Assembly (NCBI RefSeq): GCF_013391475.1
Contig: NZ_JACBAZ010000003.1
Span: 248,001 to 312,000, forward strand
DNA: 64,000 bases
Direction of reading: 5' to 3'
Source of the DNA: Oceaniferula marina
GTDB taxonomy: Bacteria > Verrucomicrobiota > Verrucomicrobiia > Verrucomicrobiales > Akkermansiaceae
How positions within the stretch are numbered: position 1 is the first letter of the stretch; each line of letters starts with the position of its first letter. Shown one piece after another: positions 1,380 through 43,722 of the stretch. Below the pieces are notes generated by a model, which was not told the origin of the DNA, searched no databases, and saw only the letters and a list, made by a program, of their open reading frames with translations. The position numbers and the translations under genes were made by a program.

Positions 1380-1453
1380 GCGGGTATAGCTTAGTGGTAA
1401 AGCTCCAGCCTTCCAAGCTGATTATGCGGGTTCGATTCCCGCTACCCGCTCCA
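1380..1453 (+). tRNA. tRNA-Gly (anticodon TCC)
   Basis: The cloverleaf can be drawn directly. The acceptor stem is GCGGGTA/TACCCGC. The D-arm is GCTT/AAGC with an AGTGGTA loop. The anticodon loop is CTTCCAA, with TCC as anticodon. The T-arm is GCGGG/CCCGC with loop TTCGATT. CCA is encoded at 1451-1453. The outermost anticodon-stem pair is a C-A mismatch; the other four pairs form. Its last 19-20 bases, CCA included, recur twice downstream as part of a 310-bp tandem repeat. Confidence 0.97.
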
Positions 1454-1458
1454 TCTGA

Positions 1459-1482
1459 ACACCCGCTCAAGGGTGTTTTTTT
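1459..1482 (+). terminator. Rho-independent terminator of tRNA-Gly (copy 1)
   Basis: Hairpin ACACCC-GCTCAA-GGGTGT followed by seven T, six bases after the CCA end. The same structure recurs 310 and 620 bp downstream. Confidence 0.85.
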
Positions 1483-2060
1483 ATGTCCAGAACACTCACC
1501 ATTCCCTTCCCCACACTGCGGGTAGTGGGATGAGAACCCTCCGAAGCGAACAAAGTGAGCGTAGGCCAAGGTTCGAGCGCACCATGTTCGTGCATCACGA
1601 ACTGACCTCCCCATCAAAAATCCGGAGGAGGATTTTTGCACACTCGCACAGCCTGAGGGGCTCCGAAGGCAGCGCACATATCATCGATCAAACTTTCGGA
1701 GGAGAAAGTTTGCACACTCGCACAGCCTGAGGGGCTCCGAAGGCATTCCCGCTACCCGCTCCATCTGAACACCCGATCAAGGGTGTTTTTTTATGTCCAG
1801 AACACTCACCATTCCCTTCCCCACACTGCGGGTAGGGGGATGAGAACCCTCCGAAGCGAACAAAGTGAGCGTAGGCCAAGGTTCGAGCGCACCATGTTCG
1901 TGCATCACGAACCAACCTCCCCATCAAAAATCCGGAGGAGGATTTTTGCACACTCGCACAGCCTGAGGGGCTCCGAAGGCAGCGCACTTATCATCGATCA
2001 AACTTTCGGAGGAGAAAGTTTGCACACTCGCACAGCCCGAGGGGAGCCGAGGGCATTCCC
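1483..2060 (+). ncRNA. Candidate structured RNA from tRNA-linked repeats
   Basis: Several perfect hairpins, two with an identical GGAGGA loop, and one compensatory base-pair change between units suggest that the repeat body is selected as RNA. It would be made only by read-through of the tRNA-Gly terminator or from a promoter inside the repeat; I could not identify one with certainty. Short ORFs exist on both strands, but none has a clear ribosome binding site or a recognisable product. Confidence 0.4.
1769..1792 (+). terminator. Terminator, repeat copy 2
   Basis: ACACCC-GATCAA-GGGTGT hairpin plus T-run. It differs from copy 1 only in the loop (GATCAA for GCTCAA), so the stem is preserved. 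Confidence 0.8.
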
Positions 2061-2078
2061 GCTACCCGCTCCATCTGA

Positions 2079-2102
2079 ACACCCGCTCAAGGGTGTTTTT
2101 TT
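2079..2102 (+). terminator. Terminator, repeat copy 3
   Basis: ACACCC-GCTCAA-GGGTGT hairpin and T-run, identical to copy 1. It closes the tandem array. Confidence 0.8.
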
Positions 2103-5028: not shown

Positions 5029-5311
5029 ACACCTGGAGTCATTCACTATTCATCAGCAACGTCATGGGCACTGGCTTATGGCGTTGTATGTTTTTAGGCT
5101 CAGCCATCTCAGACGGAAACGAATCCTTTGCCAGGATTAAAATCAGGCACGAACTGAGGAAAAGAAAACCCGCCTCCTCTATCATGTTTGCTACTATCTG
5201 AAATGGCACAAACTGACCTGTGCATTGGAAAAAATTGTTGACTTATACTACTCGAAACAGAAACTGCTTTCTATAAGAAATCATTCTGGTTTTGCATTAC
5301 TTACAAATACT

Positions 5312-6040
5312 ATGAAAAAAACATCCTACACACTTTATCTTTTCTCTGTAATGCTTTTAGGAGGTGGCAGCCTTTCCGCTGCTAGCACCTATACCTATGA
5401 CGTTAGTAATGTAGGTCCAGGCAACACGCTTCTCTCCAATGATAACTGGACGGGCGATGATATTGCAAACTGGAAAGTTGGTACATTTAGTGGCGTAGGG
5501 GAGTACCTGCGAAACTCGAACGATGGAGACAATACCATCACGCGTCAGAATGATGCTAACTTCTCCTTCACTATCGACGCCTCGACTACCAGTTTTTCCT
5601 TGGAAACCCATGGTCGCTTCGGCGTGAATGGATATTTTGAACTTGGGCTCGTGAACAGTTCAGGGTCTCTACTCGTTGGGCTAGGTGCAGATTGGTATCA
5701 ACAAAACAGGAAATGTATCATTCTTGAGGGGGGGCGTAATTATGAAACAGGAACATCCTATCCCAATAATCTCGACGGAGTTCACGCCATGAAACTTGAT
5801 GTGGACCTTCTCGCTAACAGCGGTAATGGTTCTGCTGACCTCTATTTTGATGGCAATCTGATTATTGATGATATGGCGCTTACTCTGCCTGACATGACGA
5901 CAGCGACGGGTTTGCACTTCCGTTCTGGCACGAGATATAATGGCCCAGGAACAATTGTGATCACGACTATTCCTGAGCCATCATCAACGGCACTTCTTGG
6001 GATCGGCGGCCTTGCTCTGGCCTTACGTCGTCGCAAGTAA
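5312..6040 (+). CDS. PEP-CTERM sorted surface protein
   Basis: The 242-residue protein has a signal peptide (MKKTSYTLYLFSVMLLGGGS, cleaved near SLSAAS). A beta-rich LamG-like body follows (WTGDDIANWKVGTFSGVGEYL, then repeated F-x-L-E-x-G segments). The tail EPSSTALLGIGGLALALRRRK is a PEP-CTERM sorting signal: PEP motif, one hydrophobic helix, basic end. Such proteins are processed by an exosortase and released or anchored at the envelope. The ATG at 5312 is preferred over the in-frame start at 5225 because it places the signal peptide at the N-terminus. The 283 bp upstream carry no gene I can support. Function beyond surface location is unknown. Confidence 0.85.
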   Translation: MKKTSYTLYLFSVMLLGGGSLSAASTYTYDVSNVGPGNTLLSNDNWTGDDIANWKVGTFSGVGEYLRNSNDGDNTITRQNDANFSFTIDASTTSFSLETHGRFGVNGYFELGLVNSSGSLLVGLGADWYQQNRKCIILEGGRNYETGTSYPNNLDGVHAMKLDVDLLANSGNGSADLYFDGNLIIDDMALTLPDMTTATGLHFRSGTRYNGPGTIVITTIPEPSSTALLGIGGLALALRRRK

Positions 6041-11623: not shown

Positions 11624-14083
<2,460 letters not shown>

Positions 14084-43564: not shown

Positions 43565-43722
43565 TATGGAGTGCGGCGGCTTGACGCCGCTTTGGCGACT
43601 CCCACGAGACAAAGACACCGCCAGCCGCTCCGCAAACTACAAACTACAAACTACAAACCGCCAATCGCCAATCGCCAATCGCCAATCGAAAACAAAGCGG
43701 CGTCAAGCCGCCGCATTCCATA
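43565..43722. repeat. REP-like inverted pair, family GCGGCGGCTTGACGCCGC, with tandem microrepeats inside
   Basis: TATGGAGTGCGGCGGCTTGA then CGCCGCTTTG (43565-43594) faces its near-exact reverse complement at 43693-43722. Each arm folds by itself (GCGGCG/CGCCGC). Between them lie tandem CAAACTA (43632-43660) and CCAATCG (about 43660-43688) repeats. The arrangement is like a bacterial interspersed mosaic element and ends 12 bp before the sulfatase start. Confidence 0.85.

Follow-up and report, generated by a model that had tools for sequence, protein, structure and literature searches.

An RtT-like tandem array behind a tRNA-Gly gene in Verrucomicrobiota, with related hairpin cassettes at many tRNA genes

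RtT is presented, in the sections of two papers that treat it, as an RNA released from tRNA transcripts in enteric and related bacteria (PMC4986893, PMC2965389). The first of these, in its part on Actinobacillus pleuropneumoniae, gives Northern signals for two RNAs of the RtT family that its authors place upstream of tRNA genes (PMC4986893); the second, in its passage on Enterobacteria, places rtT-similar elements among the BIMEs (PMC2965389); and a tandem GA motif is mentioned for RtT in a passage of a third paper (PMC7657543). REP/RAYT elements are repetitive extragenic palindromes associated with Y1 tyrosine transposases; in the section of PMC3733652 that defines them, a tag, GTAG or CGTC, marks one foot of the hairpin.

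At tyrV of E. coli K-12 the tRNA tail ATCCTTCCCCCACCACCA is followed by a spacer, a segment X' (GGGGAAGGAT) complementary to the tRNA 3' strand X, then GAGAA, a linker, GGTTCGA, a cassette and the ATCC tail again. The Rfam model of RtT, RF00391, matches three such units there, 178 bp apart, and one more behind tyrT, and the annotated E. coli RttR ends at the duplicated CCA. In Salmonella, two RtT units stand behind tRNA-Pro and carry the tRNA-Pro tail. Across E. coli genomes the Tyr-type frame with its cassette was found in 4692 of 5426, in 1-10 places each, and one E. coli tRNA-Pro locus varies among strains, the number of annotated units there being 0, 1 or 2. The allele without an annotated unit was considered as a clean empty site and rejected, since it keeps the first part of a unit, which is then broken, and is a shrunken array; the sequence that breaks it resembles a REP.

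RtT RNA of enteric bacteria is known already; what appears to be new is the same plan with other cassettes, at more kinds of tRNA and in a distant phylum. Our literature searches returned no paper on T-loop-targeted elements of the RtT or cassette kind, and it is on those searches only that we base the claim of newness.

The array behind tRNA-Gly(TCC)

The window, the whole stretch of DNA analysed here, comprises 64,000 nucleotides of the Oceaniferula marina genome (contig NZ_JACBAZ010000003.1). A tandem 310-bp repeat behind tRNA-Gly(TCC) had been proposed from the bare sequence, and it was borne out by ARAGORN and by Tandem Repeats Finder (1435-2107, period 310, 2.2 copies, 97% matches). Its parts are listed below, where R1 is a covariance model built from 23 cassettes and hp denotes a hairpin; in the handles used here G numbers are genomes (G000 being the window's own) and L numbers are loci.

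1380-1453, + strand: tRNA-Gly(TCC), intact, CCA encoded (ARAGORN; Rfam tRNA 73 bits)
1431-1437, + strand: T-loop TTCGATT of this tRNA (from the sequence)
1458-1482, + strand: terminator copy 1, a hairpin and T-run resembling an intrinsic terminator (from the sequence)
1518-1531, + strand: X' copy 1, GCGGGTAGTGGGAT, complementary to its own tRNA along the 3' strand of acceptor and T-stem
1532-1576, + strand: linker GAGAAC ... GGTTCGA, a T-arm in two halves, inverted then direct, separated by an inserted arm
1570-1576, + strand: GGTTCGA of the first unit
1577-1671, + strand: cassette 1, 95 nt, three hairpins (R1 88.4 bits), containing GCGCAC, hp1 1586-1602, hp2 1615-1638 with GGAGGA loop, and hp3 1651-1670
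1672-1745, + strand: cassette 2, 74 nt, without hp1, containing hp2 1689-1712 and hp3 1725-1744 (R1 35.7 bits, match span G000:C3:249667-249745)
1746-1763, + strand: tRNA 3' end repeated in direct orientation from position 59 to CCA, with terminator copy 2 behind it
1768-1792 and 2078-2102, + strand: terminator copies 2 and 3 (by coordinates)
1745-2054, + strand: second full unit (R1 88.4 bits)
1828-1841, + strand: X' copy 2, in the second unit
1880-1886, 1887-1981 and 1982-2055, + strand: GGTTCGA, cassette 1 and cassette 2 of the second unit
2055-2107, + strand: third, partial copy, with tRNA 3' end and CCA at 2056-2073 and terminator at 2078-2102

The two full copies, 1435-1744 and 1745-2054, differ at 9 of 310 positions. 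The original prediction had the last ~20 bases of the tRNA recur; the recurrence holds, and the length was too short, 53 nt being shared, beginning with A58 in the T-loop and taking in CCA and the terminator, at 1435, 1745 (98%) and 2055 (100%). Each unit reads, in order, tRNA 3' end with CCA, terminator-like hairpin, X', GAGAAC, inserted arm, GGTTCGA, cassettes 1 and 2, and tRNA 3' end. The cassettes occupy the duplicated T-loop, between A58 and position 59, and downstream of the intact tRNA there is a second, partial T-arm/acceptor half with its inverted copy in front. Neither this inverted copy (1518-1531 and 1828-1841) nor the presence of two cassettes per unit figured in the original prediction. 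Pairing of X' with X can give a helix of some 12-13 bp that resembles acceptor plus T-stem and carries a CCA tail; when 1518-1763 is folded as RNA (z -5.3), X' and the tail copy at 1746-1763 form a closing helix of 13 bp that leaves the CCA end free. Folding of the same region as DNA gives a z of -3.2.

A compensatory change between the copies, on which the original prediction had relied, is present (T1728-A1741 to C2038-G2051, in hairpins 1725-1744 and 2035-2054), and two more differences, at 1735 and 1736, fall in hairpin 1725-1744. A single such change between two copies is poor evidence by itself, and the argument is carried by the alignment of the family, described below.

At gathering scores the only Rfam match in the window was tRNA, and at a low threshold all non-tRNA matches in it lay below the cut-off. 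RF00391 gave no match to 1380-2110 at E<=5; conversely, R1 gave none to the E. coli and Salmonella RtT loci at E<=0.05, and the R2 model did not exceed 3.2 bits on the E. coli RtT locus. The comparison with rtT that had been suggested nevertheless proved closer than proposed, the E. coli and Salmonella units sharing with the window both the order of parts and the GGATGAGAA / GGTTCGA / ATCC frame. In full, the common frame runs tRNA, X', GATGAGAAC, GGTTCGA, a gap, ATCC and X. As in RtT, a tRNA gene immediately precedes the array, each unit closes with a repeat of the tRNA 3' end including CCA, and an X' complementary to the tRNA 3' strand is followed by GGATGAGAA and then GGTTCGA (1518-1537 and 1570-1576). 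Unlike RtT, the window has a cassette sequence of its own and two cassettes per unit, and more kinds of tRNA are involved in the genus. The motif GA[TC]GAGAAC, present in 35 of 44 units of the genus, would set GA opposite GA, and we infer that this is the same as the tandem GA motif of RtT. Judged by its sequence, the array in the window is real, structured, bound to tRNA genes and RtT-like in kind, and it extends that kind to a different phylum, on a larger scale.

Elsewhere in the window, at 43633-43688 and 13668-13699, there are three short arrays with 7-base units (CAAACTA, CGCCAAT and AAATCAC), and an open reading frame at 5225-6040 has, by eye, a PEP-CTERM-like tail, IPEPSSTALLGIGGLALALRRRK.

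Cassettes at tRNA genes of the genus and beyond

A DNA search of the window's own genome returned diverged bodies behind tRNA-Leu, -Arg, -Tyr and others, or behind a tRNA 3' remnant. With R1 we obtained 111 matches in 11 of the 14 genomes of the genus, the remaining three having no match. Of these matches 74 lie 32-560 nt behind an intact tRNA on the same strand, representing 16 anticodon kinds, while 11 are at contig edges and 26 elsewhere. When only matches of at least 60 bits are considered (n=74), 55 are behind an intact same-strand tRNA (within 600 nt), 7 at a contig edge and 12 elsewhere. These 12, classified by eye, comprise three lying within a tRNA copy, in its T-loop (L088:1582, L089, L027), three behind tRNA 3' remnants (L009, L122, L133), where islands are perhaps the cause of the severing, five in arrays broken off by contig ends, and one enclosed by the X' and X of tRNA-Gly(GCC), where no tRNA is visible (L117). 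In L088 and L089 the 3' half of the interrupted tRNA copy is partly decayed and an intact copy of that tRNA follows downstream. The link of the repeat body to tRNA genes that had been put forward is upheld for the strong matches, but there are weaker relatives that lie away from tRNAs: by eye, some matches below 50 bits have no tRNA nearby.

The GGAGGA loop is conserved in cassettes at many tRNAs across the genus. An exact cassette pattern occurred in 42 named stretches, 28 in Akkermansiaceae or Verrucomicrobiaceae MAGs and 14 from other groups, one of these being a Prosthecobacter record; the latter 14, together with three IMG/VR stretches, were taken as chance, since all 17 had no tRNA within 2 kb and an R1 score of at most 16.5 bits.

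Some arrangements depart from the usual one. A cassette-like hairpin block lies upstream of tRNA-Arg(CCT) in L132 (G000:C2:115300-115620) and in L109 (G010); in L132 the block occurs twice, each time following a copy of the tRNA 5' half, with the intact tRNA-Arg(CCT) downstream. This is perhaps a mirror-image arrangement, with the D-arm region possibly a second target. The hp2 loop is reversed in L088:1995-2048 and L093 (TCCTCC or TCCTTT for GGAGGA), as if the hairpin were inverted. In two genomes a common sequence with CATAGGGGACATSATGGCTT...GCCTCATGTCCCC adjoins broken units (L113, L117) and is possibly the end of another mobile element. Finally, two species have a hairpin of the same type, AAGATCC..GGATCTT, seemingly at the same place and within open frames (L114, L126), which could be a hairpin inside coding sequence.

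Beyond the genus, a strict-filter search of the phylum (2 of 288 genomes) was discarded as a measure of spread, being too low, as laxer filters gave 12 of 40 genomes with matches within the family. Outside the genus this lax search returned 18 matches in nine genomes of seven other genera: 13 behind or inside tRNAs, one beside an apparent tRNA tail remnant and four elsewhere or unclear. At two of these loci (Tyr in G041, Cys in G043) the inverted half simply copies the T-loop and lacks the GA change. The R2 model, run over the order, matched 5 of 38 genomes, with 11 matches in four genomes outside the family; among nine loci inspected, two are in T-loop-like places of tRNA-like fragments (L234, L238) and the rest not clearly so.

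Fit to the neighbouring tRNA, fold and probable movement

Units were parsed at 49 places, leaving 44 once duplicates were removed, and 43 entered a test of X' with 5000 permutations, L089 being dropped as its anchor was not recognised. Against its own tRNA, X' paired at 197 of 215 positions in the T-stem (155 on average after permutation, sd 4, at most 173) and at 168 of 258 in the acceptor (120 on average after permutation, sd 7, at most 144), values reached by none of the 5000 permutations. X' suits its own tRNA far better than other tRNAs. Its acceptor half is clearly less preserved than its T-stem half, and the fit is poor in single units (L039, L129). At tRNA-Gly(GCC), where the T-stem varies by species, X' varies with it (L014, L029, L035). 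The idea that X' is a copy of the 5' acceptor strand was dropped, as X' behind tRNA-Leu and tRNA-Arg of the window's own genome, at positions that distinguish the two strands, tracks by eye the 3'-strand complement.

In an alignment of 23 cassettes, 95.8% of cells in hp1, hp2, hp3 and the outer stem are paired, as compared with a shuffled mean of 81.6, and two-sided changes occur at 13 of 24 tested pairs against 8.1 in shuffles, with 8 of 9 in hp2. The outer stem of the cassette (helices 1 and 2) crosses hp3 and showed no two-sided change, so that covariation gives it no support. From a wider alignment of 26 cassettes RNAalifold kept seven pairs, all in hp2 and all with two-sided changes. Covariation of the cassette stems is strong, and the claim that the fold is selected stands at the level of the family; the covariation fits RNA and single-stranded DNA alike.

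Sister species were compared at 25 orthologous pairs of loci, pairs with less than 70% flank identity or without parsed cassettes having been dropped and some cassettes being parsed short. Cassette identity was 65% with flanks at 95% for Thr (L079/L099), 56% with 90% for Pro (L093/L102) and 80% with 100% for Tyr (L082/L092); the Pro pair L093/L107 has the same cassette (99%, flank 100%). In several pairs flank and pad are in common and the cassette is not, and in a few cassette and flank are equally similar. The tRNA-Gly(TCC) of G013 has no unit, and the gene upstream of it is the same by eye; such a unit-free site does not prove insertion, because recombination can shed tandem units. A pad without a cassette, sought with one exact pattern, was seen in none of the 14 genomes, which suggests that the pad and its cassette may originate jointly. 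A tree of 44 first cassettes had weak support, these sequences being too short to resolve, and clustering by genome in it is at most slight (28 changes against a shuffled mean of 30.7; as low in 12 of 200 shuffles). In G038, at one of the matches outside the genus, a 62-nt cassette-like body lies at the 3' end of a gene that we take to be secA from its tail CPCGSGKKFKQCCG; a 37-nt direct repeat (95%) flanks the body, and secA is whole.

Origin of the units

That this plan returns at many tRNAs of a different phylum, where cassettes are exchangeable at a single exact position of the T-loop and the tail fits the neighbouring tRNA, points to a general process at work on tRNA genes, and RtT, an old curiosity, comes to look like a widespread kind of element. 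We consider that RtT-type units are probably cassettes inserted at the T-loop site, with an intact tRNA kept and the units then multiplied by recombination. Mobile, REP-like hairpin cassettes would enter T-loop-like sites (GGTTCGA^ATCC) in an event that would cut at GTTCGA^ATCC-like sites and duplicate the sequence 3' of the cut, and through this duplication an intact tRNA would be kept upstream. The long direct repeats would then let units multiply or shrink by recombination. If transcription continued past the first terminator, each unit might, by analogy with E. coli, fold as a CCA-ended RNA resembling a tRNA acceptor, and tRNA 3' processing enzymes could trim it, as the annotated end of RttR suggests.

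More tentatively, and with rather less confidence than in insertion as such, we propose that RtT-type units may be an unrecognised kind of mobile element that, in two phyla or more, enters tRNA T-loops between A58 and 59. On inserting, it would re-make the 3' part of the tRNA and leave an inverted-copy scar, essential tRNAs would survive, and the scar could give rise to a CCA-ended minihelix RNA processable by tRNA enzymes. The nature of RtT is open to direct test, as E. coli K-12 carries RtT and tRNA-Pro alleles with different numbers of annotated units exist.

It is possible, though somewhat unlikely, that the array is instead a host RNA gene, its unit kept for the action of the RNA, as proposed for RtT in the stringent response, with movement incidental and selection on the RNA fold. 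The strong covariation of the stems, the RNA fold of 1518-1763, the annotation of E. coli RttR up to the CCA copy and, in the relevant part of PMC4986893, the Northern signals for the two A. pleuropneumoniae RNAs would all suit such a gene. However, a terminator-like site precedes the unit in the window, and among the 44 units 24 have a T-run of at least 5 within 80 nt behind the tRNA, preceded in 16 of those 24 by a hairpin of at least 5 bp; cassettes differ between sister species at one locus; three of the 14 genomes of the genus lack a match; and the fold also has a z of -3.2 as DNA.

The alternative offered in the original prediction, an array of att sites remaining from repeated insertions by an integrase at the 3' end of the tRNA, is very improbable. 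Such integrations leave direct repeats of the tRNA 3' end, and the array resembles tRNA-targeted integrative islands (att sites of tyrosine integrases) in this duplication; the tRNA 3' remnants before L009, L122 and L133 suggest, by eye, that islands do enter the same tRNAs. The body of the repeat, however, is a family of 75-95-nt hairpins, the frames listed over the 310-bp repeat are short ones with no integrase between the tRNA-end repeats, and the repeat continues through the terminator. Members of one cassette family follow tRNAs of 16 anticodon kinds, with a fitting X', and integration makes no inverted copy. Unlike such islands, the array has no integrase or cargo genes, contains an inverted copy and is of a kind whose tail varies with the tRNA. 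Least probable of all is an inert local tandem duplication or an assembly artefact: the units are 97% alike and slippage amplification is possible, but units built in this way are met at many tRNAs, in further genera and also in Enterobacteria, which refutes duplication as a full account and likely leaves it as the cause of copy number.

For cassette insertion at T-loops, REP/RAYT offers a parallel, both being short hairpin elements in many copies; the cassettes differ from it in that their target is the tRNA T-loop and no enzyme is tied to them. Integron attC was considered by its motif alone and set aside. Candidate enzymes were sought with two probes, the Y1 transposase family PF01797 and the RAYT alignment A2. 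Neither probe matched in G003 or G006, which have 14 and 13 cassette matches; these absences are soft, since PF01797 missed a clear A2 match in the window's own genome. G008 has four PF01797 matches and no cassette, and strong A2-type genes occur in G000, G007, G011 and G013. Cassette-like hairpins lie near the strong A2-type genes of G007 and G011 and not near those of G000 and G013:C9, related hairpins also being found near a more distant RAYT-like gene in G013. Across genomes, the presence of a RAYT-type gene does not track that of cassettes. At L186, L187 and L188, dispersed hairpins of the form CAGCCCGACGGAGGAG...GCATGGCGTGAGCGGGCGAGCGCAACC, or close to it, lie in the vicinity of RAYT-type genes and look like the hp2-hp3 part of the cassettes.
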